Shown piece by piece: positions 1 through 23,798 of a DNA stretch of 64,000 bases. Numbering within the stretch: the first letter of the stretch is position 1; the number at the start of each line of letters is the position of its first letter. Under the pieces are notes generated by a model. That model was not told where the DNA came from and did not search any database. It saw only the letters and a program-made list of their open reading frames with translations. The translations under genes were made by a program, and so were the position numbers. Origin of the DNA: Eonycteris spelaea (Eukaryota; Chordata; Mammalia; Chiroptera; Pteropodidae); assembly GCA_003508835.1 (NCBI GenBank), contig PUFA01000006.1, forward strand, positions 5,270,001-5,334,000, written 5' to 3'.

Positions 1-285
1 AGAATGTGTTACTTTTCAAAAAACAAATGTAGTTTCAGGTACATAGTACAATGGTTAGACATTTGCATAATTTATTAAACTCGTCCCCCGATTGCTCTAG
101 TAACCCCCTGGCACTGCACACAGCTGTGACAGTAACATGACTCTGTTCCCTCCGCTGTACTCTGCACCCCCGTGACTGTTCTGTAACTACTAATCTGTCC
201 TTCGTCCCTTCACCTCTTTCACCCAGCCCTCACCCCTCCCCCGTGGCAATCACCAGTTTATTCTTTTCTAGTGAGAAAGTGCTTT
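1..285 (+). repeat. L1 3'UTR fragment
   Basis: The text reads like the 3' untranslated tail of a mammalian L1: a 'tttcaggtacatagtacaatgg' type opening, then a run with 'cccgtgactgttctgtaactac' and a pyrimidine-rich end near 'cacctctttcacccagccc'. It lies in the BMP8 intron upstream of the penultimate coding exon. The wording resembles laurasiatherian, perhaps bat, L1 tails, which is the only weak lineage hint in the window. Subfamily and exact ends are not determined. Confidence 0.6.
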
Positions 286-663
286 TCTGTAAAAACCCTG
301 AAAATGGAGTCAGTCTGAACCCTGAGCATAAAATGTCAAACCCACAACAGGGAACCCAAGGCCAAGGTGGCGGGGCCTCCGCCTTCGCTGCCACAGCAGC
401 TACAGGAGCCGTGGCCGTGGGGGGTCGGCGGGGAGGATGGCGCTGAGCGCTGACGGCAGGTGAAGGGGACACAGCTGCTTTCCAGTCCTGCCTGCTGAGG
501 GCCTCCGAGGGGATGTCAGCCCACTGGGAGGGGCCCGAGTGTGGTTTGATGGGGGGAGGTAAGGGGCAGCCCTGAGTCATCCGTGACAGGTGCCGGATAG
601 AGGGGCTCGGGAGGGGCCACCCGGTGGGATGCACCTTCTTCCATTCTCCCCCTTCACCCCCAG

Positions 664-774
664 GATTGGGTCATCGCCCCCCAAGGCTACTCAGCCTATT
701 ACTGTGAGGGAGAGTGCTCCTTCCCCCTGGACTCCTGCATGAACGCCACCAACCACGCCATCCTGCAGTCCCTG
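664..774 (+). CDS. BMP8B: BMP8 penultimate coding exon
   Basis: 111 bp, phase 0 on both sides, following an acceptor ending ccccag and followed by donor gtcagt. It encodes 37 residues from DWVIAPQG to NHAILQSL with cysteines in YYCEGEC and the BMP8-specific LDSC. The 111-bp size matches the equivalent exon of BMP7. Confidence 0.95.
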
Positions 775-3700
775 GTCAGTACCGCACCTGTCCTGCCCGG
801 ACCCCCGGGGAGGGCGTGCTGGGGAGAGGGTCTCGGACAGCCAGGGGCCAATGGGAGCGCCTGCTCAGGTCTCGGGGAGCCCCCTCGGCGTGGAGCCTGC
901 TGCTGCGCACACGCGTAGTCAGGTTCCCACACGGGAGCGGATGCTGCTCCCGGCGGGGCCACGCCGTGTGTAGACTCTGCGGGTGCACACACATGTGCAC
1001 AACGTGCACATGGGGACATGTAGGTACAGGTGCTGGAACCAGACTCATGAAGGCGGCCTGCTTGTGGTCACGTGCACACACAGAACAGATGTGTATCCCC
1101 CCTCGGCACCTGTGTGCTTTGAACACGTGGGCATCCACGCGCACTGGTGTGTCAGACCTTCTGTGACGCGTGCACACAGGGTGGGACAGGGGTGTGTGTT
1201 CACCGCCCTCTTCAGGACGTGTGCAGGGAGAGTCTCCGTGTGCCCAGTGCCGGGCGTTCTGACCTGGGCTCCGCCTTCTGTTTACTCCCTGTGGGCTCTT
1301 CCCCCGGGTCCTCCCGGCTCTTTGTGTGGTTGGTTTGGTGGTGTGGTTTTTGATGCCTGGGGTCTGAGGTCATTTTAAATGCCGAAAACGAGTTTCTGTG
1401 AGGAATATCACTGCTCCTGCGTATCGCTCAGTGTTTTAAATGTCTGTTGTATTGAGACGTCTTTCTAGACCATTTACCCAGACCCCTAGCTCTTAGTATC
1501 CCTAGCGTTATGTTTATCTCCTAAGAGGTTGTCAAGGTTGTCAAGGTGATGCCTTAGGGTGAGAGAAAAGGACTGTAAAAAGTGGCTTTGGCCCTGTAAG
1601 GCCTCCTTTCTCGACAACAAATGGGGTTCGCTAGACCCTGGGGGCCGCCTTCCTTGGGGACGCTCAGGGGCGATGTGCCGTGTGATGGCCACCGCGGCTT
1701 CCGTGCTTCAAGCACGTGCACCTCCCAGCCCCTGCGAGGGACCTGGGGTGACGGCCGCACCCGCATCTCTAGGGCTGTCCCTCCCCTGCCTCTGCCCGGA
1801 CCCTGGCCCTCAGTCCCCAAGGTAGGTCAGCAGGAGTGAGCACTCAGGGTGTGCTGGGGCGAACGAGACAGTGACTGCCTCTCGGGGAGGCTGTCAGTGA
1901 ACACATGAGCCAAGCACAGGCCAAGACGATGGGTCCTGTGAGAAAGGAAGACTGGGCTTCCATGGGGAGGAGGAACGTTCCAGGCACAAGGGTCCAGGCC
2001 CCAGGACAGGAGCAGCTGGATGGGCTCAGGGCCTGCAGGGAGGCCAGGCTGCAGGGGAGCAAAGGAAGGCCGAGGGAGGTTACACTGGGGTGCGGAGGGG
2101 CCCTAACATAGGCCCTGGGGTCCCTGTAAGGTGGCAGGTGGGTGGATTTCGTCCCAAGTAAAGCGAGAAGCCTTTGCAGGATTTTCGGGAGACAGTATCA
2201 TGACCTGATTCTCTAGAAGCATCTCTCTGGCTGCAGTGGGAGGATGGGAGGCTGGACCATGGGTGGAGGGCGGAGGAGGCCGAGAGACAGTGAGGAGGCT
2301 TCTGTGGCCACCTGACAAGAGGACCAGGGTGGCTGGCAGGTGGTGAGAAGTGGCTGAGGCCACAGGGATGGTGGAGGGAGGGTCAAGGGGAGGCACCAGG
2401 GGCCTCCAGGTGAGGGCTGAGTGACCTGCTGAGTGACCTGCCCCTGGGGGGCAGAGTTGTTGTTGGGGTAGGAGGAGGGACTGGGGGAATGGTTGTCTGC
2501 TTCTGCCACCACTTTTGAGGCCCAACGAGACCCCACGTGACCAAGTCAGGCAGGTGGCTGGATCTTTGAGTCTGGAGTTCAGAGGCCAGGCTGAAGCTCT
2601 GCACTGAGAGACGTGGCCCGTGCCTGGCCTTTGGGTCCTGAAAACAGATGAGATTATCTGGGGACACAGTAGGTCCAGGAGAGGAGAGGCCTGTGAAGGA
2701 AGAGGAGCCCTGAGGAGACTGGGGGAGTGATGTGCGAGGGCCTCGGAGTGTCCTGGGGGCCAAGAGAAGGAAGGTGACCCTCCAGGCTCACCCTGGGGCC
2801 GTTCTGCACGCAGCGTCTGGGAGCTGGGCGGTCTCACTGAGGCACAGAGCTGACCTCTTCTCAGCTGAGAAACTTCCCTTTGCTGCCCATTATCTCCAGG
2901 AGGAAGTCTGGGCCCTGAGCCTGGGGCGCGGGGCCCCTCATTAGCCACCCTGCTGACCTCTCCCACGCCCCCTAGCACACGCCCCAGTGCCCTGTCTCCC
3001 TGCAGACACTCAGCGCCAGCGCGTGCCCCGGGTCCCCACCTCTCTGCCTTTGCACCTGCCGTCCCACCGGGGGCGTCCCCCTCTGCCCCGGGCCCGCCCC
3101 CCTGCCCGCCCCGCAGCCTCGCCTGCCGCCCTTCCCTGCCAGGAGTGGTCGCCATGCTCGTGCGCCCGCAGCGCTCGGGGCCTGCTGCGACATCGTGCCA
3201 CCCCGTGGGGCCTGCCTGTTTCCTGGAGTGTTGCCCGGGTCCCCGTCCCACCCCACCGAGGGTGGGGACAGGGACCACGTCTGGGACATTTCTGTGCTCC
3301 CCGCCCTGGCACGGTAGGCACAAGACACGTGCCCAGGTACATTTGTGTTGGAAATGAGAAAAGCACCCTTAGACGCCTTTGGCCGAGAACACTGAGGCCC
3401 CCAGTGAGCGGACTGTACCCAAAGTAACAGAGCCTCTGACTGGTCTCCTAGTGGCTCAAAAGCGAGTCTAATGGAACGGCCCATCGGACTCTGCAAATCA
3501 ATCTGTTTGGTGCCAGATGGAATGCAAGGCCCTTTCTCTTCCGTCGCTGATGTGATCGAGCTTGGTCTGGGGTGGGGTCGCGGAATGGCCGCAGCCCTGT
3601 GGGCCCGGGTTCTCTCTCAGGAAAGGCCCTCCCCAGTTTCCAGCCGCTAGAGCCCGTGGCTGGCTCACCAGGCTGGTGTCACTCGGTTTTACACGTGGGC

Positions 3701-4995
3701 CCATGAATGCCAGGCCAGACACCACATGTGGAGGCTGGGAAGGTGGGGAGCAGTGGCCCCTCACATCCCAGTCTGGCTGGGCATTCCTGCAGAGGCCTCG
3801 GCTTCCCCTGTGGCCGCAGAGAGGCTCTGGCCCAAGCGAGCCCAGTGACCGCTCACGGCCCTCCCGGCAGGTTGGCTCAGAGCTTTTGGGACAAGGCTGG
3901 GCCTTGGGGAACGGGAGCCAGACTGCTGCACAGGTCCCCCCATCAGACAGCTTCATCCAAGTCCTGCTCAGCAGCCTCCGTGAGGCCTGGTCAGTCCTGG
4001 GCCCTCGGAGTGGCCACAACACACACGGATGGAAGCAGGCTCCTCTTCCCTCCTGCCCCCAATAGCTCGGGGCTGTCTTCAGGGCCCGTCCATGTGGGGC
4101 CCTGATGAGGAGTCCAGTGTAAACTCAGCTCATCCTGCCAAGTCCCAGGATAAATATTTGTATGGAGGCTGAAATAGCTCCTCGATCAGGCTCTTTTTCG
4201 GTGGGTAAAGCTGTTCAGGAGGAGGGAGTGGGATCACTACACCCAGGTCCAAGTCTCGCCACAGGTCACGTGGCCTTGTCCCGTTTCTTCATCTCCCAGA
4301 ATACTACTTCCCTCAGAAGCTGTTATGAGGGGTGAAAAGTACTTTGAGAAATAATGTGAACACCCAGGGGTGAACCTAGAATCCTAGGCTTTATCCAGTT
4401 GTTCCACGGACACTCAGCTCAGTGGAGGAGGAGGAGAAAGACCATAAACAGCCAAGGCGGACAAGACAGGGTCAGGGATGTTACAGGAGCGCAGAGAAGA
4501 GGGAGGGGCGGAGGGGACCCCAGAGGGGCGGTGCTCCAGGGGCATCAGGCAGAGGGACCCGCCACCAGGAGCGCTGCACTGTGTTTGGGGACAGGCAGGG
4601 TCCTCAGGTGAGGGGAGTCCATGTGGCAGGGAGCCAGCACCCAGGCCTTGCCCCGAGGGCCTCAGGCAGCGAAGGGTCAAGGAGGTCAGGGCTGGAGCTG
4701 AGGTGCACCTGCCCTGGCTTGAGAATAAAGCGGGGAGGGGAGAGTGGCAGGAGGCCAGGTGCAGGCAGGAGCTCGGCCGGGGCTGTGCGGGTCCTGGGAG
4801 AAGGCCACCGTGCTCACCTCTGCCTGCCGCCCCCTCCCTGGCCAGGTGCACCTGATGAAGCCGGACACAGTCCCCAAGGCGTGCTGCGCGCCCACCAAGC
4901 TGAGCGCCACCTCCGTGCTCTACTACGACAGCAGCAACAACGTCATCCTGCGCAAGCACCGCAACATGGTGGTCAAGGCCTGCGGCTGCCACTGA
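664..4995 (+). CDS. BMP8B: BMP8 (3' part of gene): last two coding exons, join 664-774 and 4846-4995
   Basis: This is the C-terminal part of a bone morphogenetic protein of the BMP5/6/7/8 group, a secreted dimeric TGF-beta ligand that signals through type I/II receptor serine kinases and SMADs. The two exons join to give 86 residues from [14 protein letters not shown] to the terminal VKACGCH. Six of the seven conserved knot cysteines are present here; the first lies in the exon before the window. An additional cysteine in PLDSCMNAT, where BMP7 has tyrosine, is a BMP8 hallmark, and NAT is a likely N-glycosylation site. Exons 1-5 lie left of the window. In human the BMP8 copy next to PPIE is BMP8B; if this species has only one BMP8 gene the A/B suffix is arbitrary. 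The frame is intact. Confidence 0.93.
1850..2770 (-). repeat. L2 LINE, minus orientation
   Basis: A chain of L2 3'-region words read in antisense: the segment around 1885-1995 (increase of gtgaacacatgagccaag, then 'ggaacgttccaggca'), the block at 2155-2215 equivalent to L2 'ggactttgg..gggaagcc..gacatgatctga', and the 2565-2715 segment with 'gagtctggagttcagaggcc'. Strongly diverged and interrupted. Confidence 0.6.
2860..3320 (+). repeat. L2 LINE, plus orientation, GC-rich
   Basis: Shows the L2 sense progression: text resembling 'ggaagtctgggccctgagcc', then '..tctctgcctttgcacctgcc', then a run ending near 'gggacagggaccacgtctggg' and 'ccctggcacggtaggca'. It lies next to the minus-strand L2 at 1850-2770, so two L2 pieces sit in opposite orientation. 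Confidence 0.6.
4225..4370 (+). repeat. MIR SINE fragment
   Basis: Contains MIR-like text 'ccaaggtc..cgccacaggtcacgtggcc' followed by 'tttcttcatctcc' and 'agaagctgttatgagggg'. Old and diverged. Confidence 0.5.
4846..4995 (+). CDS. BMP8B: BMP8 last coding exon
   Basis: The acceptor is tggccag; the exon begins GTG CAC CTG ATG and runs in frame to TGA at 4993-4995, giving 49 residues. It contains the adjacent cysteine pair in KACCAPTKL and the closing VKACGCH, two landmarks of the TGF-beta knot. The 3'UTR follows directly; I see no clear AATAAA in the next 500 bases, so the transcript end is not placed. Confidence 0.96.
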
Positions 4996-7489
4996 GGCCC
5001 TGCCCGCCGGCCACTGCGGCGCCACCCGGATCAGGCCCTCTCCAGGGGCAGGAGACCCTCAGCTGCCAGCAGAGCTCTGGCCGGGCCACAGGGAGGGCCC
5101 TCGTACCTCTGTCCATGCGCAGCCAGGGTCTGGTCCTCTCCAGGCCCCTCTGCCCCCTCCCCTGGGTTCGTGGTTTGTCCCATTCCATCCCATAGGGCCT
5201 GATGCACACAGCAGCCTTGGTGTGCTGACGGCGCTGTCTGCGGTCAGCACAGGCCTATCTTAGGACCTGTCCTTGGCCGTCCTGGCCCACACTGTGGCCG
5301 ACCTGGGACGGTCTGAGCTGCACCTGGAGCGTAAGTGTGGCTGTTGGGCTCTGCGCCACTCACCGCAGGCTTTGGGTGTGGGAGCAGGGTCTGCCCCTTC
5401 CCAGGGCAACGCTGGGCCGTTCCGGGCACAGTCAGACACGTGCACGCCCTCAGCACAGCGCATGATTGAGCTCCTAACCTGACCCGCTGGCCGTTAGCAC
5501 GTTAGAAAAAGGACAAGCTGGGGGTCCTCATGCCCTGGGCCTGCCCTTCTCCTGCCTGGGGAAGAGGCGCCACCCCTGGGGAAGCAAGGGCCTTGGGGGA
5601 TTCCAATGCCCTCAGTCTCCACGTGGAGCTCAGCACTGAGACAGAGCTAACTCTCAGCAGAAGCAAGGAGTCCGTGCAGTGAGTGGTCCTGGCAGACACA
5701 GCACAGATGCCCCACTGCCCATCCCCTTGCCCATGGCCATCAGAATCAACCTGGGTGTTTTTTCCACTGAACCTGGCAGGGCCTCAGGACCCTCAGCACA
5801 AAACTCTAGGCAGCCACCAGCGGTTCGGAGTTGAAATGAACTGGTTTCCCGCTCCCGCCGTGCGAAGGAGCAATCCATTGCCCCAGAGCACGCTGCCTGG
5901 GCCGCCTCTGGCCAGACACTGTCAGTGTGTGCTGGAGTCTAGGAGGCAAGAACGGGCTGGTCACCCCGTGTGCCCAAGTCCTGTCCTGTTTCTTGGGGCC
6001 TCTGAGCCAAAGAAAAGGCCCCTGTCCCAGGGGGAGTGACAGGCGGTAATTTAGGCTGAGCTGCGTGGGGAGGTTCCCGGAAACCACTGCTCTCCTTGGA
6101 GCAGCTGAGGCAGTTGGAGTGTTTATTTGATTTTTGACTTGCTAAGCCTGTAATTTACCTGCTGGAGCACACAGAGTCCAGCTGCCTGAACCCTGAAACA
6201 CTGTGTCATTAAAAGCAGGTCCTGGGCCCACCCCAACCCACAGGCACAGCCCGCAGAGGGAGCGCGACCCATGTGCCCAAGGACAAGCATCCTGGAATTC
6301 ACTGCACCCTGAAGACAGGCTCCCGGAGAGCAGGTCTAGAGCAGGGGTGGGGGCTGGGGCCATGCTGTGGGACAGCTCTGCCCCCACCAGGAGACTCTGG
6401 GAGCAAGTGCAGAGGAAGAGATCCCTCCAGGTACAGAGGGTGGGCCCAGACCGTCTTAAAGTAGTGAGTCCCCGTTCAGTGTAGGCATCTAAAGTCTGGC
6501 CTAGATGTTGGGAGACCTGACTTGTTGGTGGCTTCTTCCTCTGGGTCTCATTTTCCATCCTTAACATGAAGGCAGGAGACTTCCTGACCTCCAGAGGGCC
6601 TGCAGCCAAGGAATCTGTCTGCTGACCCTTTCTCACACTGAGCCCAGATGCAGCCCCAGAACCCTGAACACGGAGCTCAAGTGGCCGTTGTGAATCTGGG
6701 TCATAAATCAGATGGCGGTTACAAATTGGCACATGACTGGAACCTATTTGCCATTCTAGTACTTATCTAATAGCTCTTTCTTCCCAACATCACGGATTGT
6801 CTTTTAGTAACTGTAAATTTAAAATAAGCCAACTAACTTTTTATTTCCCCTGGAAGCTTAAGTGTCCAGCCAATGGCCTGGTGTAGGTAGGGGTGCACTT
6901 GGAATGTCTGTCAAATTACCAAAGATTTGTAGATATGGAGTACGCCTTCCCTATCAATCAAGCCATGCACCGCAGGAATGAATAGGAATTGCAATCCTCC
7001 TTTTTCGTGCAGAACTGAAAAACAGTGAGTCATTGCTTACCTATCTGGCCATCAGCAACTTATGAGATCTAGTCATCAAATGAAATCAAATTTAAAAAGT
7101 CCTGAGCAGTGAAACAATTGTGGACCCAAAGCCCATGCATTTTTTTCCGTGAGTTATCGATTTGCTGAGCCAAGCATGGCCGCTGCAGTGTGCGGCCCCG
7201 GCTGGCAGATATGCAGCACAGATGCCACCATTTCCCTTTCTCTTGCTCAGGGCATGGCTTCACCAGACCACAAGGATAAATGAGTGTGGTCAGACTCACT
7301 GACAGCAGTGAGAAATCAATGACAGTTGACAGGAAGGGAGGGCACACGGAAAAACAGGCTAAGGAGAAATGCACAGCAATCTTGGTATTTGCAGTTGAAT
7401 CCTGGCCTTGAGACCAAGTTGTCAGAATGTTAGCATTCACTGTCTTCTAAGGTAAGGGAATAATATATTCTGGAAAATCTCTAAGGAAT

Positions 7490-10690: not shown

Positions 10691-11081
10691 TGACAAATAA
10701 GCAAAGTACCTGGCGTAGAGAAGGCAGTTTGAGTTATAATTTCATTTTTTAAATTCTGTAGAATAAAACTGAATAAATAAATGAATCATTGAGACTGATA
10801 AGCATGTTTGCTGGCTACGAATGAACACCTTGAGTTTAGAAGTACAGGCGGCAGATGGGAACTTCCCTATATCTTTGATTTCCGTTGTCCTGACAATGGT
10901 CTGATAAGGATATCTGGCTTGAAGATACATTCCCTGGCATCTCAGGGAATACACCCAACGAAGGAAAAAAAAAGTTGTGGAGAAGACACTATGCCCTACT
11001 CCCTCACCAGCCTACCTTGGTCATAGATGCAGCCTCTGACATTTCCCAGGAACTAGCTGGAGGCAGCAACAGGAACCAGAA

Positions 11082-11087
11082 TTTATT
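11082..11087 (-). terminator. PPIE: PPIE poly(A) signal AATAAA
   Basis: TTTATT on the plus strand reads AATAAA on the minus strand about 310 nt after the PPIE stop codon. It is the first canonical hexamer in the 3'UTR and the likely main cleavage signal. Confidence 0.65.
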
Positions 11088-14000
11088 TTACCACAGGAAA
11101 CATCCAGAAGACACACTGGAGGGCCCCGGGGACGCCCTGGCAGCAAAGCTGCAACACCCATGCACAGCTGTCCACAGCAGGGAGAGTGGCCTGGCACACA
11201 CGCTGGCTCCCACACCCACAGTCTCGCTTGGGAAAGAGCCAGAGGAACCCAGGCCATGCCTGCAGAGGAGCTGCCCCAAGCTGACCCTGAGAAGGGCCAT
11301 GACACAGACCCCTGCTTAACGGGACACCCTCGCGTGCTGGTTTCCCGGGCTGACTGCTTCTGGATACGCAGGGGCAGCGTAGAGAACGTGCCTCTCACAC
11401 GTACTCCCCACAGTCGGAGACGATCACCGTCTGCTTTGGCTTTCCGTCCTTGCTGCCCTGGGCCTTTGTGGGTGGAACAGAGGGGAAACCAGGGGAGGGA
11501 GGGTAAAGATTAAAGGTGGCTCAGGGACAGTCCTCAACTCCCAGCCTGAGCAGAGGCAGCCTCGGCCCCTCTCTCCAGGCCACAGGGTGCCCGCCCCAGC
11601 TCTCTCACTGAGCTGTGCATCAAGGGCCCGGGCAGCCACCCACCTCAATCTGCCGCAAGACATCCAGGCCTTCTGTGACCTCCCCAAATACCACGTGCTT
11701 GCCATCCAGCCAATCCGTCTTGTCACACGTCAGGAAGAACTGGGAGCCATTGGTGTTTGGGCCAGAGTTGGCCATGAAGCAGGCCTGGGGGAGAGAAAGC
11801 ACGTCAGCTCCCTCACCCAGGGTACGAATGGTCATACTGTCTACCACCCTTTGGCAGCAGACTCTGGATGTACAGACCATGCAGATGCCTTGTCTTTCAC
11901 TCAAATGATAGTCAAAAAAATGATAATCAGCATTGTTTTAATCATTTTATACTGGTTTGTCTTTTCATTCATTCATTCATTCAACAAATATTCACTGTCT
12001 ACTGCTGAGCCTTGGTGACACTGGTCCCAGCTCTGGTGGAGCTCAGTCTAGTGGAAAAATCACTCTGGAAAAGTCGCTCAGGAGGACTGTGCTGGGACAG
12101 CCACAACACAGCAAAGCCCACTGATACAGACATCTGTGTAGGGAACGAAAGCACAAGGGGCAGTCACTTAAGAGTGTGCGTGAATGTACCATGCTGCTGG
12201 TGTCACTGTCATGGAAGGCTTTCTGGAGGAGGTGCCATCTGAGTTTAGTCTAAAAGGCCCAGGTTTGGTGGGGCTGAGGGGCATGGGGAGCTGCAGCTGA
12301 CCTGTGGCGGTGAGAAAGCCCACTCATGGCTGGGCCTCTGCGGCGTGTGCTCCCTTTGGATGGGGACTGTGTCCCCGTCTACTCTCAATGCCAGAGGAGA
12401 ACAGGGTGTTGACACATGGCAGACCAGCCCTGGGAATATCTGTTTTACACAGTCGAATACTTGTGTGTTCACTATGTGTCAGACGCTGTTCCAGAGCACA
12501 GTGCAGAAAAGAGCCTGCGTCCTGCCCTCACGAGGCTGACATTCTCAGAAGGGAGACAGAAAACCAATAAGGAAAACAAATTTATAATATAATATCAAGT
12601 AAAAAGTGTGATAAGAAATGAAGCTGACTAAAGAGAACGAGATGGAGGAAAGCCCATTTAGAGGGAGGTCAGGGCAGGCCCCTCAGACGAGGTGACCCGT
12701 GTGTGACACCTGAAGGAAGTGAGGGGTGAACCGTGTGGGAACCAGAGGACGAACGCTCCAGGAGAGGACACGGCATCTGCCGAGGCCCTGGGTGCGTGAG
12801 GAACAGCGGGTCTGCCGTGGGGACGGGACGCACGGGGCAGAGCTCGCAGTCAGCGATCGTGGGGCGGTGCCAGGCCCCAGGTCAGTGGGCCCCACAGGAC
12901 CAGATCCTATGACGATGTGGCCACGAAGGCTGTCAGCAGAGCAATGTGACGGGACTTCGTTTATAAGGTTCGCTCTGACTGCCCCTCGGAGATCAGACTA
13001 CGAGGGCGAAGAGGCAAGAGCAGGAACAGGGAGTGAGCGCGCAGGACCCTGGGGGTGGGGTGGGGTGGAGAGCGGCCAGACCAGGAGGTGACCTGAAGAC
13101 AGGTGGACCTGACGTCTGGGTGACGGAGGAGAGGGGTCAAGGATGAGTCCTGAGTTTCTGACTAATGGGCTCGGTGGACGGTGGTGTCACTGACTGAAAC
13201 AGGGAAGGGGGAGAAGAGTTTGGGGGAGAAGAGCAAGAGCTATGAGGGCCTGAGAAGCGTGGGGTGTCCACAGGGAGAGGACAGGGAGGGACTGGCACGG
13301 AGACGGGAATGTGGGCAGATAACTTGCAGATGTGACTGAGAGCCCTGAGACTGGAACTCTGCCTGGGCCAGTGGTTCTCAATGGGGTCATTCCTATCCCC
13401 AGGGGCCCCTTGGAAATTTAAATGTATTTCTGAATATCAGAAATATTATGGACTGCTACTGGCATTAGTGGGTTGGGAGGCCTGGAATGCTCCATGTTCT
13501 ACAATATCTTACAAAATGAGAAATTGTCCCATATCTTCTTAGACTTTGAAATGTCCTACTAGACAATGGTGTGGGTGGAAGATCTGTTTACAATTTTCTG
13601 CACCTAAAACCTAATTCCATCATATTTAAGCCCAAAGTTTTCTGTTTTTGTTTTTGGCAACTACTATCAAGAGAATACTGTCATTTGTTTAGCTAAGAAT
13701 TTAACCAACTATATTTACCACTCCACAAAACCATGTCACCAACAGTTATGCTTCCCCTGGTGTCCAAGCTGCTGGTCCACAACAGCGCCTGCATTTTCTA
13801 GTTGCTGCACCTGAAATAATTATTTGTCATCTGTTTAGTGTGCTTGAACATTTACCTATGGAAACCCAGATTCTTCTATTACAACTTATTTCCTTCGAAG
13901 TTCGTTTCTATTAGTTACAGAAGATTGATTTTTAAAACAATTATGTCAGGAGGTAGGATAATCATCTATGAATTCTGTTTCAGCGCAGTAAAGAAGGAAA

Positions 14001-17000
14001 TTATAAGCTATCAGAAAAAGGGGGCAAGGGGCTTCTATGGAGACAAAGACTGAGCTCTGGGCCACTTCTGTTTTTTGGGGTCAGGAAAAGGAGGAGAGCA
14101 AAGACTGAGCAAAAGTAGTCAATCAGATAAAAAGAAAACTAGAAGGGGGAGGAGTCCTGCCAGCCCAGTGAAGAAAGATTCAAGGAGCAGGAGATAGCGG
14201 TATAAATGCTGCTGAGAGGCACAGGAACATGAGGCCGAGAGGTGCCTGTTGGTAAGACGGAGGGGTGTGGCTAGAAGTCTGGCTAGAGGAACATAGAGAG
14301 AACAGAAAGCAGGAGTCTACACAACTTTTTCAAGAAGTTTTGCTTAGAAAGGGATGAGAGGCATGGGTGATAGTTGAGGGGGATATGAGGCAAAGGATGA
14401 TATTTTAAAAGATTGATACCACATGCTTTTATGATAGGCTGCTCTAGCAGAGCACAGGGATGGAGGATACAAGGCAGTAAGGGCGAACGACTGCAGAAGC
14501 CAGGTCCCTAAGGAGGGGCAAGGGAATGGGGTCCAGGCCACAGGCAGGGGGGCTGGCCTGCGGAAGACAGCCCATTCCCGGCCTCAGAGAGAAGTCAGAG
14601 CATGTGTGAAGAAATGCAGGAGGCCATCCATTAGCTGAGGCAGAGGGCGATGTGGAGGCTTCAGCAGTGAAGGAAGGAATGGAATCATCATCTCTGATGG
14701 GGACTGTGGATTAATGAGGAAAACCTAATAAGGCTGCCCAGCGGCCCTGAAGAACTAGAGTCAGAAATCTCAAGTGGGACCGTTCAGTGCAGTTCTGTGT
14801 TTTCCTTTAGTTGCTCGGGGACTAACCACTGAAATTTTTTACTGAGTAAGTCTGACAAAGAGAGGCGGGCAGTCGGGTTGAGGCAATAAGAGTGAGCTTA
14901 CAATGAGAAATCACAGAACTCAAGCTAGGATAACAGGGAGTAGGACATGGTGGAAGGATGGATAGCGTATGAACGGAAGCAAGCTTACTCTGCTCTAGCC
15001 AGGCTGAACGCTTCTCCTCTGTGAACTGGTTGGTCTCTCCAGTCCCCCGACCCCTCAGCCAGAACCACAGCTCGTCATCCACCCTGCACAGCCATCCTGC
15101 CCCAGCCCAGCCCCACTCGTCACCACCCACTGATGGGTACTACCTGGTCCTGTGTGTTTGAGGATAAAGTTCTCATCATCGAATTTCTTCCCGTAGATAG
15201 ACTTGCCCCCAGTGCCATTGTGGTTGGTGAAATCGCCGCCCTGGCACATGAACTGGGGGATGATGCGGTGGAAGCTGCTCCCCTTGAAGCCAAAGCCCTT
15301 CTCGTGGGTGCACAGGCAACGGAAATTCTCTGGGGTTGAGAAAGGACAACGTGTTCAGGTTAAAAAAACAACAAACAAACAAACAAACAAATAAAACCTC
15401 CCTCTAATGAGACTCTGAAAACTATGTTACATTTGTTTAAGTCTTCTTTTAAAATCTCTGTGGTGTTGACATCTGAAAGGGCTACATGAAATTCTGGTTA
15501 AAGGAGGAGTGAATACAGGCATTCTAGCTCCGCCCCATAATAAATTCACCAATTTGGTAGAGTGATTTAAAAAAAAAAAAAACCAGGATGTTAAAAAAAA
15601 ACATGGGTGAATCTTTGTGACTTTGGATTTGGTAATGGTCCTTAAATATGACAAATATGGCACTGGTAACAAAAGAAAAACAGATAAATTAGACTTCATC
15701 AAAATTAAAAACTTTTGTGCATCAAAGGACAATCTTAGAGTAGAAAGGCAACTCACAGAATGGGAGAAAATATTTGCAAATCACATCCAATAAGAGTTTA
15801 ATATCCAGAACATATAATAAGCTCCTACAACTCAACAGTAAAAAGGCAAACAACCCAATTAATAAATGGGCAAAAGACTGGAATAATTCTCCAAAGAAGA
15901 TATACAAATGGCCAGTGAAGCACATGAAAAGATGTTCAACATTAGTCATTAGGGAAATGTAGATCAAAACCACAATGAGATACCACTTCACATCTATTAG
16001 GATGGCTATGATACACGGAAAATAGCAAGTGGGAAAGGTTCTCAGGTTATAGGCTTGTGAATATATTAGGCACCTGAATAATCCAAGTTATTCTCTTTAT
16101 CTTCTGAAGCAGGAAGCCAATAGATAATGTCTAGCATGAAAAGACCAGGAAGCACTAACATAAATGTGTTACCTACCAATATTGAGGTAAAAACCAAATG
16201 TGTCAGCTAAGTTGAAATTGGCTGCCTCTGAAGAGCAGCACATGGTGTTGGTGGTGAGGGAGGGTAAGAGGACAGCACCTGGGGACTGGGCAGCTGATTT
16301 CCACTGTTTTATCAAAATGCACTTTGTGAAATTGACTTTATATCTATATAATGAAATCTTAGATTAAACAGAAGTCAATATTTAACAAACTCAAGAACCT
16401 GTCAGTTAACAGTATTCTAGGAAGGACCGGATGTAGATAGGAGAAAAAGACAAGTTTTAAATGTACTGCCTTCAATATTTTTGGAATCTATGTGTGAGAT
16501 ATTCTTTTTTCTTTTTAAATGAAAACATATTTATTATCTTTTTTACAAAAATATTTAAAAATAGTAAACCAGCACTTATGAAGCCTCAAAAACACCTGCT
16601 CTGAATAGATCTTACTAGATCTCAGGATCAAATTTACTCAGGTCAGAAGCGATGTCAAAGGCGTAAGAACCGAGGCATCAAGAACCTTGGCAAGGTCAGT
16701 GTCAGCCACCAGCTTCTTGGCCGTCCTGAATGGAGTCCTGCCCACCTGCTGTCATGGGGACGACGTCTGAACGCAGGAGCATCTGGATGCGGCCGGCTGG
16801 CTTGTTCCCAATCTTGATGTCCATGTACACCTGAGGATTCGACCGGGCCTTTTTCGCAGTGGGCTCTCCCTAGCGTGGAAGACACCATTAGGTTAGAGAG
16901 GACTCCTTGACTCCATGAGTAGGACAGCGAGTACTCTTCTGAGCATGCGCCCAGAGCCCAAATGCAGAGAGCAGGCTGGAGCGAGGTGCTGACAGGGAAG

Positions 17001-20000
17001 GCCTTGGGCCCTGATGGGGCTGCAGAAGAAAGAGGCCATGGCCACAGCACCCAGCTGGACACCTAGGGAAAGGAGATGTCAGCACTACCTAACTTGAGCC
17101 CCGCCCGCAGGCATGTTATCTCATCACACTCGCCCTCACACACCTGGCTTGCTTCACCCTGCTCTGCAGTCACACAACAACACTTTTCTGGCTCACGATA
17201 CACAACTCTCAACATCATCAAACCCCAGCTCAAGTCACTCACCTTAGTCCAGTTAAACAGATCCATATACGTAACATCACTTTCTTCTGTGCTTAGCCCT
17301 GCATGTCTATGGCTGGCTACAATGGAAGCAAGGAGGGGAGCCTCCAGTTGGAAGTGCTCAGAAGACAATGGAGAAGCTGGGGCCTTGCTCTACACCCTAT
17401 GTAGATGAAGCTAAGCAGAGGACAAGGGGACATTTAATACAGCCATGACGTTTGTTCCAAAAGAAAAAAGTCATGTGTTTGTAATTTGTCCGTGGTTTAG
17501 TTTAACAAACGTGCTGAGGTATTATGCTGGGCACTGAGGACACTATTACCATCAACTGCTGCTAACAGCAGCCGTAGCACAGTAGTAGCAGCAATTCATG
17601 GCACTTGCTATGTACAGGGTGGTATTCTACGTTCTATTTACATTAGCTCATTAAGTCCTCATAATCACCTTGAGATCAGGACCATCATCCCCATTTTACA
17701 GATGAGGAACTGAGACACAATGAAGTTCAGTAACTTGCCCAGGGTCATAGAGCTGATAAGTGGTGAAGCTGGAATTCAAACCTAAACTACTCAATCCCCT
17801 CTCCCCAGTCCATGCTTTTTGTTTTGTTTCTCAGTTTTTTTTCTTTTTTTTACACCCAGTCCACACTCTTAATCACCTTACCCCACCTTACATTTTTATT
17901 AACAAGATGCATAATACAAAGCCCCTATCCTCAGAGTTTGCTGCCTAGACAGGGAAAGGCAATAAGCACTTGAGTTGCTGTACAAAAGCAAAGATATACA
18001 GGGAAAGACAGAGTGTAAAGTGGAGACCACAATATGAAGAGGTGGAACTGAGACTGACGAGGTGGGCAGTATCAAGAACTTGGAGAGCCCCTCTGGACTT
18101 TATCTCATGGACAGGTGATAGGGGAGTCACTGAAAAGGTCTCTGCAGGAGAGTCAGATATTATCTTGTGCTTTAAAAAGATCATTCTAGCCATCTTTATG
18201 AAAGACTGGAGGACAGCAAGACTGTAGCCAGACTAATTAGGAAGCTATTGCAATTATCCAAATGAGATGAGAGGCTAAACTGGGACAATGGAACAACTGG
18301 GGAGAAGGGATTTAAGAAGATTTAAGAGAAAAACTTAGAACACGATGATGGATGGTATTTTCTCTATTTTAAAAAGGGATCTAGGATGACCCAGAATTAC
18401 TCCACTGACTGTGAGGGCCATTTATGTGCTCTGCTTCGCATCCAAATTTCTGGCTGAGGTCAACATGTGGATGGATGGTAACAAATTAACAAGCTTGAGA
18501 ACACAGAAGAACAGGATTAGTGAAGGGAGGGCATCTACTTTAGATAACTTTAGGCTTTAGGCTGTCTGTGAGACAGCAGCAGTGTCTGAAGCTCAACATA
18601 GAAATAGAGACCAGGAAAGTTACAGCAGACCAGAGGCTGTGAAAAAATCAGACTGACTGCCACTGTTTGGCAGAGAGTAAAGAAAGATGCCATGAGTCAA
18701 AAAAGAAACCCAAAGCAACAACGTTTGTATGGAGGGAGGCCTAAGAAGCATGGCCAGGAGAGATGCTGAGAATCAGGAGAAAGTGCCAAGGAGAGGCTCT
18801 CTGAAGAAGAGAGGACCTTGAACCTGTGTACAGATGGAAGGGATAATACCATTATCCTGTCCTACCAGCCCTCAAGGACGGAAGAGGAAGACAGTGAGCC
18901 TTATGATGCTTCAATAAAAGAGGAGGGCTGGTCAGGAGGGGCGAAGAGGAGCACTCACTACAGGTCCTCACCTCAGGCTTCCTCCTTGGCAGCTGCCAAC
19001 ATGAAGCAGTACCCAAGAGGAGCTGAGAAGCTCATGACGCAGAGCACAAGGATGAGAGGCCTAAAACCTCTCTTTAGGTCACTCAATAGTGCCTTAACCA
19101 AATTACTGAGTTAATTTTTTATTCTCTTTGCTTTTGTATATGTATTTGCAAATTTCCACAAGAGCTTAAAAAGTCTCCATGGTAAGTGCCAGCCTCTCCT
19201 CTAGAAGCACATGCCTTCATCTCACCTCCTGGGTTTCTGCCTTGGGAGGCTCTGAGCCTTCTTCTTCTTTATTCTCTTCCAGAGTCTTCCCGGAAAACTT
19301 CTTCAACCAGTCATCATCTGACCAAACTGAAGGGAAAGAATCAAACCAATGTTAAGAGATTTGAGCTATCAGGCACCTGCTAATTAGCTGTTTTGGTCAG
19401 CAAAGTGGAACACACTCAGCCAGAGGATTCTGCTCTGGGAACTCCCAAGGGCAAGGAAAGTTCCTGTTGGGAATGCTGGCCCTGAAGTACAGCTCGGCAG
19501 GTCTAAGTGAAAAGCTATGCCAAATGGAAAAGTGTAGCCTTGCTGGTTCCAGCCCCTTGGTGGAGCACCCCAGGAATGAGAAAACTGGGAAAGATAAGAG
19601 ATCAGGCAGGGTTTCTCTCATAATGGAAACAACTGCCCGAAGAAGCTCAAACTCTTTTCATTTACCACAAAGGTGGCACATGTCTTTCGCCAACGTGAAT
19701 CATCCTCTACTCCTGTCCACCAGGAGTAGCACTCAACACCTACTTCCATGTAAATAGGGAGAAAAAATGCAACTAAGGCCACACTGGAGGATATGATGGG
19801 GAATGTGTGCTCGTCCCCACTCACCTGGTCTGGAAGAGCCTTCCTTTATCCTCATTGGTTTGGCCAAATTGACGCGAATTGTCCGTCCAAAGAGTTCAGA
19901 TTCATTCTGAAAAGATTGAAAATCCAGCACCTGAAGTCAGACTGCTTTTCCATTTGCTTCTGATACATCTGAGACATGCTCATGACTTGCTCTCCCTTAA

Positions 20001-23000
20001 TCCCTGACCTAACAGCAAATTTGCATCCACCAAAAAGCAGCCCTTGGGTTGCAAGGAATTTCCTCCCAGAAGCCATCACACATCTCCTTTCTACAATACC
20101 AAGAACCGTGCTAACAAAAGTAACTCCGGGTTCAGAGTGCTCTGAAATTTTAAGTGTAGTTTCCAAGTACCTGAACTCACCTTCAAAAGTCAAGGTCAGC
20201 TCTGAAATGGAGAGAAATAATCTGAGAGCTGAGGAATATATGTAGTTAATGGGTAACAGAAACCAGGACTGGAGCAGAAACTGACTATCCAAAGATAGCT
20301 AGTACCAAGAATGGTCACTTAATGTGAATCTACTCAGAGCAGTGAAGAAAATTTCATGGTAAAAAGTGTAGAAAAAAAGGTCTATTGTGATGAAACAAAA
20401 AATAATAAAAATAAATTTCTTATAGTTAAAATTCAGGTTTAACTACACACTAATTTGTAGAACAAAGATTTAACAGGTGCTGATTAATTTGCAGTATTTT
20501 TTCCAACAAAGTTCTATCAACACTACAGTATGACATCTTGCACACCAGAGCTGATATGAAAATCACAAGGATCTCAAAGAGGGCACAAATTCTCAAGAGT
20601 GTCATCATTTTCTCCAAGGACTTCTCCAGGACATTCAAGTCATTTGTGTCAGTAGCACCCCCTGTCATAATCCTTACTGAATTTTTCTTCTCAATTGTTA
20701 ACCAGTCTAATGCTTCATGAAAATAAATTCTGCCTCTTTTGCAAAATATAAAATTTCCCTGTGAAATTACTTTGCATAGTGTTGCAATTTATTATCCTAG
20801 ACATGGGGCAGCCAAGGAGAGATTAGCCAATAAAGATGATTAGGATTTATATTATTGTTAAATGGGGAAGGATGTTTAAGGATTAATCTTCTAAGTGAGT
20901 AATTCAGAATGAATATTTCCACATGACAATTTTTACTTCCCCACGCAACCTTGTAACTTCGGAGGTTCAGCAAACCAATAATATGAACACGAACCCTCTG
21001 TACCACCAAAAATAGCTTTAGTAAGAATGAAGATTCTCAGCCATACCATGTTGTCAATAGCTGCTGCAGCATCCTGCCGAGAAAAGACAAGGTACAAGTT
21101 TAGCTTCCTGCAGTGTCTAAGCACATACTCAGTAGCAAAAAAAAAAAAAAAAGGCAAAGTCATTTCTATATTTACTGCCTAGGTTGTGCATGTGTCTAAC
21201 AAAGAGCGCTTCCTAGCTGACTTCAGAGCTGATGGTACAGCAATTAGCCATCTGGTGAAAGGCATACGCAATAATCACCGGTGCTGCCAGGCAAGAACGG
21301 ATATGAGCAGGGCTGCAGGAGCTCTGCCGAGCAAGAGGGGCAGGACTTGGCAGGTCTGAGATGTGAACCACAGCCTAAAATTTAAGTGAGGGACGTTTTT
21401 CTTCAAACAATACTTCTTATCTCTCTGGAAGCATCAGCATGAGGCCCAGAAACCTAACCAAATGGAGAAGAGCTCCCTCTGTGATCAGTAATAACACTAA
21501 CACAAGCCAAAGATGAAATATAGGTAACGCAGAATTATCTCACCTCTGCCAACTCAAATTCAACAAAAGCAAATCCTCGGTGCTTTTCTGAAAAAAACAA
21601 AGATAAAAACAAGTAATTACCATTTAGAGTAAAGGGAAAAAACAGATGATCACAAGGAAAGTGAAGCCAGTCGCACGTCATATCTAGATATTAGAAATTC
21701 AACCCAATCACTGTTTTGGAAGAAGAAATCTCATTCTTTAATTCTTTCTAGTTTAAACAGCATTTCAAGCAACATTAAGCTTTGTTTTTTAGTGAATATA
21801 GCTAAATAATGAACTATACTTTTAATCTTTAAAATAAGCATTCAATTCTGCTAACAAAGCCAAATTAAAATCTTAACCTTTGCATGCAAAGCAACTAGAA
21901 CAGCGAAGTCATTCAACCTATCAGATATTCATTCCAAATACATATTATGAGCATCAACTGTAGATAAAGTGTGAATCCTAAAACCCAAAAAAGGATGCTC
22001 ATTCTTTATTCTCAGGAAAATGCTGATCTACCTAGAAAGACCAAACACAGAAGGATTAATTTAATTAACCAACTGACCTTAAAGGACCAATATAACCTTA
22101 TTGTTTTTCACAGTTAAAGATCCTAGGTGCAGAGAGTTGAAAGACCGTGCTAATAATAATGCAGGGTCAATGACTGAGCCAGACCTAAAATGCTGGTCTT
22201 AAAAATGACAATAAAGGTAAAATAGAAAACTGAACTGTAACTGTTACATCTATTAAAGGTGTGCAGAGGCCAAGTCCCCAATGTTGGGGCTAGGCTTTCC
22301 AGCTGCTGAGAAGGGAACAGATGTGCTGGGGTACCCAGTAGGTAGTTTGAAACAACAGTCAGGTCCATTTTGAGCCCCATGTACCTCAAAATCTATCTTC
22401 CTACTGGGGTAAATTCTGCTTTATCTCAAATCCAACAGATGGGACTCCGCAAAGTTGTTACAGTTCACAACCACAAACCTCAGAACATCCCTTCTGCATC
22501 AAGATCACTGTCATGCTGCCCTACTGAGGCACCCTTCAGAACTTTGGTTATACCAACCACATAATACACTGTAGTAGGACTTTAAAATTTTCTTTTAAGT
22601 TCTTTTACCAGTAGGAGAATTCTGAACAGGAAAGACACTAAAAGGACTCACCTGTTTCATAATCTAGAGGAATCTGAATATCTGTAATGTCTCCGAAAGG
22701 AATAAAAGCAGCATGAAGAACTTTGTCGTCCACTTCCTCTGCAAGTCCACCTGCAAAGAAGCCAAAGGCCTTCTGAGCCACCCGTCCATTCTTTTGAGAA
22801 GTCCCTGCAGCACAGCATGCTCTAGGCGAGGGGAAGGGTGGTTCCATCCAGTCCTTTGGGTACATACATAAGCAATCCTCTTATCTACTTCTTCATCTAT
22901 ACTTATGAAATACACTACTCTCTTCACCCTTCTTGAAGACCCTCATCTAGCCTCAGGATGACTGAAATAGCTTCTTAACAGATCTCCCTCTCCTCCACAC

Positions 23001-23798
23001 AGCCAATTAGAATGAGATCGTGTAGATTTTAACCCATCATTTCCCTGCTTAAACTCCTTCAAAGGTTTCCCACTGTCCTCAGGATAAGGTACAAACTCCT
23101 TAGCAGGCTCTTCATAACCGGAGCCCTGACCACCTCTCCAGTCTCTTTCTCTCTATTTCCCCAATTCCCTGGGTCTCCCGAAGTGACCTACTTGCCCCCA
23201 AATGTAATGCTATTTCACACTTTGGGCTTTTGCTCTTGCAAACACACTTTCACCAAACACACTTGCTCCTACTTTGGCTACCTGGCTAACTCCAGCTCAT
23301 CAGCTCCTGCGTCACTGCATCCTGAAAGTTTGTTCTCGCCTCTCCAGATGACATTTCTCCCCGCACCCAGGCCCATGTCATCCTTGTTTGTCCCCATTAA
23401 AAGCGCTTATCAAACTGCCGATAGAGATTATTCTCAAGTCTACCTGGCTACTCTGGGAACCCCTTCCTTTAGGGCAAGGGCTGGGCTAAGCCATCGCTAC
23501 AAGTTAATGTTTGTAAAATGAATGGGCGCGAAGATTCAGAGGTCCATAATATTCCTCTACCAATCCTCAGTGTCCAGGAGGCAAAAGTGTTCCGGTTAGA
23601 GCTTAGTGGACTTAGAAAGGAGCGGAAATATCACATCTTGGGCTAACACCCTGAAGCAAACCAATACAGCCATAGATCCCGCCGAGAAAGCTGCTCGCCG
23701 CCCTCCGCGTCCAGCTCCACTGAAACCGGGTTCACCCAGACCCTAGCTAGTGCCCGCGCTTGCTCACCCACGTACAGCACACGCTTGGTAGTGGCCAT
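11082..23798 (-). CDS. PPIE: PPIE, RRM plus cyclophilin peptidyl-prolyl isomerase E; ten coding exons, frame broken in exon 9
   Basis: PPIE is a nuclear spliceosome-associated protein with an N-terminal RRM and a C-terminal cyclophilin domain that catalyses cis-trans isomerisation of prolyl bonds; it also binds the KMT2A PHD finger. Coding exons on the minus strand, 5' to 3': 23798-23768, 22750-22652, 21587-21544, 21073-21047, 19906-19825, 19326-19226, 16869-16746, 15329-15144, 11784-11644, 11463-11395. RNP2 (VLYVGG) is in exons 1-2 and RNP1 (RGFAFVEF) in exon 3; catalytic-region R191, F196 and Q199 are in exon 8 ([15 protein letters not shown]). Nine exons have sizes that keep the 301-residue frame. 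Exon 9 is 141 bp where 143 is needed, so the sum is 904 nt, not a multiple of three. Read literally, the protein shifts frame after residue 231 and stops after about 20 foreign residues, losing [14 protein letters not shown] and everything after it. Confidence 0.9.
11395..11463 (-). CDS. PPIE: PPIE exon 10 (last coding exon)
   Basis: Acceptor cacaaag, then GCC CAG GGC. It encodes [22 protein letters not shown] and TGA at 11397-11395. Compared with the human protein, KV-IIAD has become TV-IVSD; the end CGEYV is conserved. The frame used is the ancestral one, so the frameshift in exon 9 would prevent normal translation from reaching it. Confidence 0.93.
11644..11784 (-). CDS. PPIE: PPIE exon 9, 2 bp short of the expected frame
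   Basis: Acceptor ctccccccag-like, donor GAG-gtgggt. In the ancestral frame the exon encodes [19 protein letters not shown] through LDVLRQIE, including the residues equivalent to cyclophilin A A101, N102, Q111, F113, W121 and H126. The 5' end reads GCCTGCTTCATGGCC; mammalian PPIE needs 11 bases before ATG (coding GLLS) but only 9 are present. Exon 8 ends in phase 1, so the join is out of frame and gives TGA within about 62 bases. That stop is about 79 nt upstream of the last junction, so nonsense-mediated decay would be expected. Downstream codons remain intact, which favours a recent lesion or a sequence error. Confidence 0.9.
11950..12260 (-). repeat. L2 LINE 3' end, minus orientation
   Basis: Begins with 'attcattcattcattcaacaaatattcactg', the reverse of the L2 3' tail, in the PPIE intron between exons 9 and 8. 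It ends near 'ctggaggaggtgccatctgag', which is also an L2 antisense phrase. Confidence 0.65.
12450..13340 (-). repeat. L2 LINE, minus orientation, long fragment
   Basis: Shows the L2 antisense order: 'gtgtgttcactatgtgtcagacgctgttccagagcac', 'tgccctcacgaggctgacattct', 'cctgaaggaagtgagggg', 'ggatgagtcctgagtttctgact'. Located within the 3.4-kb intron between PPIE exons 9 and 8. Confidence 0.65.
13375..13590 (+). mobile_element. DNA-transposon-like fragment
   Basis: Begins 'cagtggttctcaatggggtc' and continues with 'ctgctactggcattagtgggt' and 'ctacaatatcttacaa', phrases of an old hAT-type element. The family is not named with confidence. Confidence 0.45.
14140..14700 (-). repeat. L2 LINE distal region, minus orientation
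   Basis: Matches the distal antisense part of L2: 'ataaatgctgctgagaggc', 'ctacacaactttttcaagaagttttgct', 'tgatagttgagggggatatgagg'. Intronic to PPIE. Confidence 0.5.
15144..15329 (-). CDS. PPIE: PPIE exon 8
   Basis: 186 bp, phase 1 in and out, acceptor ccccag and donor gtagta. Encodes [18 protein letters not shown] through KHTGP, including the cyclophilin active-site residues R191, F196 and Q199 within [15 protein letters not shown]. Identical in sense to the human exon by eye. Two further GT sites just downstream of the donor (after 17 and 20 extra bases) would change the phase and could in principle re-join exon 9 in frame. Confidence 0.96.
15364..15397 (+). repeat. (CAAA)n simple repeat
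   Basis: An A-rich run with repeated caaa units in the intron 5' of PPIE exon 8. No further structure seen. Confidence 0.8.
15590..16030 (+). repeat. L1 ORF2 3' end fragment, plus orientation
   Basis: The L1 ORF2 end is recognisable: 'gattagactt..catcaaaattaaaaac', 'tatccagaacatataa', 'ctcaacagtaaaaaggcaaac', 'aatgagataccacttcacatc'. It is truncated and interrupted by stops, and lies in the intron between PPIE exons 8 and 7, antisense to PPIE. Confidence 0.85.
16530..16745 (-). other. Candidate read-through terminal exon or old retrocopy directly 3' of PPIE exon 7
   Basis: Immediately after the exon 7 donor, the minus strand continues with GC-normal, low-repeat sequence and reaches AATAAA (plus TTTATT, 16530-16535) about 210 nt later, followed by an A-rich stretch. 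If the donor were skipped, PPIE would add about 16 residues before a stop and end here. The segment also contains a 32-residue open stretch in another frame (from TPFRTAKKL), so an old processed insertion is an alternative. I do not recognise the peptide. Confidence 0.35.
16746..16869 (-). CDS. PPIE: PPIE exon 7
   Basis: 124 bp, phase 0 in and phase 1 out, acceptor cgctag, donor gtgggc. Encodes [18 protein letters not shown] through [10 protein letters not shown], the linker end and first strand of the cyclophilin domain. The human I in GEPI is T here. KKAR is a possible nuclear-localisation element. Confidence 0.95.
17500..17790 (-). repeat. MIR SINE, minus orientation
   Basis: Contains 'attagctcattaagtcctcataatcacc', 'cccattttacagatgaggaactgagacac' and 'acttgcccagggtcatagagctgataagtgg', which is antisense MIR in full order. 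Confidence 0.85.
17890..18800 (-). repeat. L2 LINE, minus orientation
   Basis: L2 antisense phrases in order: 'gcccctatcctcagagtttgctgc', 'ggactttatctcatggacagg', 'gctttaaaaagatcattctagcc', 'gactaattaggaagctattgcaa'. Intronic to PPIE. Confidence 0.65.
19226..19326 (-). CDS. PPIE: PPIE exon 6
   Basis: 101 bp, phase 1 in and 0 out, donor gtgaga. Encodes [18 protein letters not shown] through PPKAETQE, the acidic linker between RRM and cyclophilin domains. Matches the human linker closely. Confidence 0.95.
19825..19906 (-). CDS. PPIE: PPIE exon 5
   Basis: 82 bp, phase 0 in and 1 out, donor gtgagt. Encodes [18 protein letters not shown] through EGSSRP, the last RRM strand (TIRVNLAKP) and the start of the linker. 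Confidence 0.95.
21047..21073 (-). CDS. PPIE: PPIE exon 4 (27-bp microexon)
   Basis: Only 27 bp, phase 0 on both sides, encoding DAAAAIDNM of the second RRM helix. Acceptor cggcag, donor gtatgg. The tiny size is shared with the human gene. Confidence 0.95.
21544..21587 (-). CDS. PPIE: PPIE exon 3
   Basis: 44 bp, phase 1 in and 0 out, acceptor tttcag, donor gtgaga. Encodes [14 protein letters not shown] with the RNP1 octamer RGFAFVEF, residues 47-54. Confidence 0.95.
22652..22750 (-). CDS. PPIE: PPIE exon 2
   Basis: 99 bp, phase 1 in and out, acceptor ttgcag, donor gtgagt. Encodes [18 protein letters not shown] through IPLDYET, the first RRM helix and second strand. Confidence 0.95.
22970..23500 (+). 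repeat. L2 LINE, plus orientation
   Basis: L2 sense phrases: 'taaactccttcaaaggtttcccactg', 'ggataaggtacaaactccttagc', 'cacactttgggcttttgctcttgc'. It fills most of PPIE intron 1, antisense to the gene. Confidence 0.7.
23768..23798 (-). CDS. PPIE: PPIE exon 1 coding part with start codon
   Basis: 31 bp from ATG at 23798, encoding [10 protein letters not shown] plus the first base of a glycine codon, donor gtgagc. The context agcaagATGG has A at -3 and G at +4, a good initiation site. RNP2 (VLYVGG) spans this exon and the next. Confidence 0.96.

Follow-up and report, generated by a model that had tools for sequence, protein, structure and literature searches.

We found that the PPIE gene of Eonycteris spelaea, as assembled, falls 2 bp short in exon 9, and we hold it to be very probable that an indel error was left uncorrected here in the consensus of a long-read assembly. 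The frameshift is thus a correct observation with an ordinary cause, and the animal itself almost certainly has an intact PPIE. There, exon 9 would most likely measure 143 bp, with the strong acceptor CTCTCCCCCAG|GCC as its splice site, and the gene would yield the full cyclophilin E of 301 residues. The assembly is probably long-read based, and the raw reads should contain the missing bases. A loss of the gene, as implied by the first-pass annotation, is not supported; the evidence favours dropped bases.

The PPIE locus and its exons

The window, i.e. the whole stretch of DNA analysed, covers 64 kb of contig C6 (5270001-5334000) and holds, in this order, the end of BMP8 (+), PPIE (-), HPCAL4 (+) and what resembles a first exon of NT5C1A. 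Since PPIE is thereby placed between BMP8 and HPCAL4, as in the human order BMP8B-PPIE-HPCAL4, the copy in the window was regarded as the authentic PPIE and not as a PPIEL copy. The sequence of PPIE (cyclophilin E, CYP33) was recovered over its whole length, with the RRM and cyclophilin parts and ten coding exons, by tblastn with a human PPIE sequence and by an exon model. The frame of 301 codons is interrupted, as the assembled coding sequence measures 904 nt and reaches a stop at codon 252. Rfam and tRNA scans of the 64-kb window gave no matches. The features of the locus are as follows:

23768..23798, minus strand: PPIE coding exon 1 with the ATG, 31 bp
22652..22750, minus strand: PPIE exon 2, 99 bp
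21544..21587, minus strand: PPIE exon 3, 44 bp
21047..21073, minus strand: PPIE exon 4, 27 bp
19825..19906, minus strand: PPIE exon 5, 82 bp
19226..19326, minus strand: PPIE exon 6, 101 bp
16746..16869, minus strand: PPIE exon 7, 124 bp
15144..15329, minus strand: PPIE exon 8, 186 bp, donor CAG|GTAGTA
11644..11784, minus strand: PPIE exon 9, 141 bp in the assembly, 2 bp under the in-frame length
11776..11779, minus strand: position at which bases are missing when the exon is compared with the paralogue
11395..11463, minus strand: PPIE exon 10 with the stop, 69 bp, identical in the paralogue
49500..51531, plus strand: HPCAL4 coding exons, in frame, anchoring the locus as BMP8-PPIE-HPCAL4

The two-base shortfall in exon 9

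The exon sizes reported at first pass (31, 99, 44, 27, 82, 101, 124, 186, 141 and 69, summing to 904) were all recovered, with GT/AG borders at the nine introns. It was likewise confirmed that exon 9 has 9 rather than 11 bases ahead of its ATG, and that the normal splice is out of frame and meets a TGA, which the exon model places at bases 60-62 of exon 9. Transcripts are subject to nonsense-mediated decay when a stop lies more than 50-55 nt before the last exon junction. Since the TGA sits 79 nt ahead of this junction, the frameshifted transcript would be a target of the pathway.

A paralogue of the gene is present on the same contig. Its exon 9 starts as CAG|GCCTGCTCTCCATGG, with 11 bases before the ATG, versus CAG|GCCTGCTTCATGG in the window. 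Against this paralogue, MAFFT resolved the shortfall into one 2-base gap plus one substitution and BLAST into two single-base gaps one base apart, in both cases within 11776-11779, in agreement with the earlier placement of the missing bases at about 11776-11780. Conserved protein does continue past the lesion, as had been claimed: from the ATG of exon 9 onwards, 44 of 44 residues are identical to human PPIE (chain 1zmf_A), and a real lesion would therefore need to be very young. Nine mammalian PPIE proteins, three from bats, were compared at the junction itself, out of the 120 matches listed among 7309; none has a break or an insertion there, and two carry substitutions.

Indels and substitutions between the inverted loci

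The paralogue belongs to a second PPIE locus (C6:5416002-5427739), which lies about 145 kb away in inverted orientation and adjoins PABPC4. Since the two loci are inverted repeats, partly kept alike by gene conversion, they can be used to detect errors. In true divergence, as in our contrast set, indels are fewer than substitutions, whereas consensus error produces the opposite. The tracts concerned are the following:

1..6476, unstranded: BMP8 3' region, 99.1% and 98.5% identity (two pieces), inverted relative to C6 at about 5431079-5437545
664..774, plus strand: BMP8 penultimate exon
4846..4995, plus strand: BMP8 last exon with the stop
12200..13347, unstranded: PPIE intron 8 tract near-identical to the paralogue, 4 substitutions versus 6 indels

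Up to window position 6400, the BMP8 3' region shows 21 indels versus 9 substitutions in 6303 aligned bases. Single-base events make up 16 of these indels, with 6 bases missing in the window and 10 in the paralogue. The count omits the ragged end at 6401-6476, which holds five more indels and six substitutions and would bring the total to 26 versus 15. The rest of the pair (11022-19338; 3458 aligned bases, the near-identical intron 8 tract included) has 51 indels versus 248 substitutions, and the contrast between both parts is significant (Fisher p = 3e-9). In the intron 8 tract, at a distance of 0.4-1.6 kb from the lesion, the window lacks a single base in five of the six indels, and in the sixth the paralogue has a gap of 2 bp. 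The tract 11200-11599 beyond the lesion, where the copies are 98% identical in part, has no indel excess (9 substitutions and one 3-bp gap). Indels thus outnumber substitutions in two near-identical tracts and not in the less similar 11200-11599.

Some further features of the pair were observed. The BMP8 3' regions differ by so few substitutions over the 6303 bases that recent gene conversion is indicated, in line with the concerted evolution published for BMP8A/B. The window also comes close to identity with the PPIEL-like copy at positions 11200-11500 and 12200-13347, with diverged sequence between them, as if conversion tracts reached into PPIE (exon 10, which is identical, and part of intron 8). 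Exon 10 of both copies departs from the KVII seen in all nine mammalian PPIE proteins; the pseudogene copy may have passed on its sequence, or the lineage itself may have changed.

Frame integrity elsewhere in the assembly

Variable exons of the clustered protocadherins are expected to carry an open frame of about 780-930 residues. Among 46 such exons, an unsplit frame of at least 750 residues was found in 7 and of at least 650 in 13, which leaves 39 short of 750; four of the 46 are split within an 83-residue domain. Two neighbouring protocadherin genes were followed, and in them one protein is spread over several frames, with gaps mostly of 1-2 bp. The last exon of APC runs as a single open frame until a shift at TTTCAGGG, and from there to the APC C-terminus in another frame; this check covered the readable part of a 9-kb stretch, about 2.1 kb excepted, and one shift was seen. 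Human APC presumably has one more C at TTTCAGGG. At a second locus, probably APC2, the match to APC_basic is divided between two frames.

HPCAL4 is in frame over 191 of 191 residues, and no frame break occurs in the nine remaining PPIE exons (763 nt) or in the matched PABPC4 exons. Since these exons are clean, the error rate in unique sequence, as judged from APC, the probable APC2, HPCAL4, PPIE and PABPC4, is lower than in the near-identical tracts and the protocadherins.

Frameshifts were therefore encountered in conserved genes unrelated to PPIE, namely the protocadherins and APC. As conserved genes are broken in number and their loss is not credible, bases are likely to be missing from the consensus. 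Together, the indel excess and the broken frames are what uncorrected errors in a long-read consensus look like. Several points weigh against reading the PPIE lesion as such an error: the single-copy coding sequence close to it is clean, the error rate in unique sequence is the lower one, the adjacent tract 11200-11599 lacks an indel excess, the lesion consists of two bases and not one, and some of the indels between the copies and some of the short protocadherin frames may be real. The first-pass annotation had offered three readings, i.e. a very recent lesion, bases dropped by the assembly or compensating splicing; the indel-rich tracts and the protocadherin and APC frameshifts favour the second.

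Alternative explanations

The main rival to an assembly error, although an improbable one, is a real and very recent 2-bp deletion, present in the sequenced individual as a heterozygous or rare null allele whose transcript would undergo nonsense-mediated decay while the other allele supplies PPIE. Such an allele would show the shortfall just as the sequence states it, exon 9 would be conserved past the lesion, as expected for a very young one, and the adjacent single-copy coding sequence would be otherwise unbroken, as was found. However, many similar indels occur in the assembly, both nearby and in unrelated genes, and because of them a biological cause is superfluous.

Less probable still is a real deletion, fixed in the species and offset by altered splicing (through the +20 or +17 donor downstream of exon 8, or an acceptor at -23), with a few residues inserted in the cyclophilin domain. 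The rescue sites proposed earlier do exist, as there is an AG 23 bases upstream of exon 9 and a GT both 17 and 20 bases beyond exon 8, and they allow stop-free in-frame combinations. Splice sites were scored with a simple position weight matrix (PWM), which is not a trained tool. The authentic donor of exon 8, CAG|GTAGTA (15138-15146), scores 0.4, being weak at +5 and the weakest among the nine PPIE donors, and the +20 donor comes near to it at 0.0. The latter is the best rescue site and would give a protein of 307 aa; that it rescues PPIE after a fixed loss, so that cyclophilin E gains a new insert, is just as improbable as altered splicing in general. The -23 acceptor would also restore the frame (308 aa), but it scores -9.6 versus 6.7 for the strong authentic acceptor of exon 9, and the +17 donor reaches -3.1. 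Moreover, the insert would fall in the conserved segment GPGLLSMANSG, which is free of insertions in all nine mammalian PPIE proteins compared, and a rescue demands the precise compensation of a change that resembles an error. On paper splicing could compensate for the loss, but this is neither favoured nor needed.

Least probable of all is that the PPIE of the window is a pseudogene and that a working PPIE lies elsewhere. It can appeal to the second PPIE locus on the contig, which adjoins PABPC4 as human PPIEL does. Against it, the window copy occupies the BMP8-PPIE-HPCAL4 position and its nine other exons are intact, whereas the other copy is decayed. Several independent lesions or relaxed constraint, as in a real pseudogene, were not observed in the window, where there is one lesion site and conservation after it. 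The proposed search for a second PPIE did find a locus on the contig, but a decayed one. In this second copy, exon 2 contains an in-frame stop, the frame changes in both exon 6 and exon 7, exon 8 lacks 18 bp and, separately, 2 bp, and exon 9 lacks 7 bp and carries an extra base. Assembly error may also account for some of these 1-2 bp changes, but hardly for the stop or the longer losses. A genome-wide DNA search with exon 9 and its flanks (1,962,903,590 bases in 3802 contigs) hit ten places, i.e. the window, the second copy (88%) and eight shorter stretches (43-125 bases, 72-91% identity) that presumably belong to other cyclophilin genes and to retrocopies; apart from the first two, the search found no close copy of exon 9. 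A working PPIE elsewhere was rejected, since the sole other locus found is decayed. The exon 8 donor of the second copy reads CAG|GTGGGA, versus CAG|GTAGTA in the window. It was also observed that a decayed PPIEL-like copy stands beside PABPC4 in a non-primate mammal, which suggests that PPIE was copied as long ago as BMP8 was duplicated.

An origin of the lesion by gene conversion was rejected, because the paralogue carries 11 bases.

An uncorrected consensus error thus remains the preferred cause of the shortfall, and a lone frameshift of a conserved gene in this assembly should not be taken as evidence for gene loss. Were the lesion real, it would be surprising for a mammal to have lost or remodelled a cyclophilin that is so widely used in the spliceosome.

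Comparison with known systems

The Eonycteris spelaea genome report describes a PacBio-only genome, assembled with Falcon and polished with Quiver, of 1,966,861,576 bp in 4,470 contigs (PMC6177735). Our literature search found no report that deals with frameshifts and sequencing errors in E. spelaea. In errors of long-read-only assemblies, as in the PPIE case, missing bases break conserved reading frames. Errors in homopolymer length are described as the commonest residual errors in long-read-only bacterial assemblies and as difficult to correct within repeats (PMC8812927), and another study attributes false frameshifts to long-read errors (PMC12007338). The cases in these papers come from bacteria or small genomes, whereas the PPIE case concerns a mammalian gene beside an inverted repeat.

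The arrangement of the loci resembles human PPIE/PPIEL and BMP8A/BMP8B, where there is likewise an inverted BMP8 pair, with PPIE by HPCAL4 and a decayed PPIE by PABPC4. Concerted evolution of BMP8A/B over more than 100 million years has been described (PMC2720389). The text of that paper, as far as it was searched, makes no mention of PPIE, whereas here the near-identity extends to exon 10 and intron 8 of PPIE.
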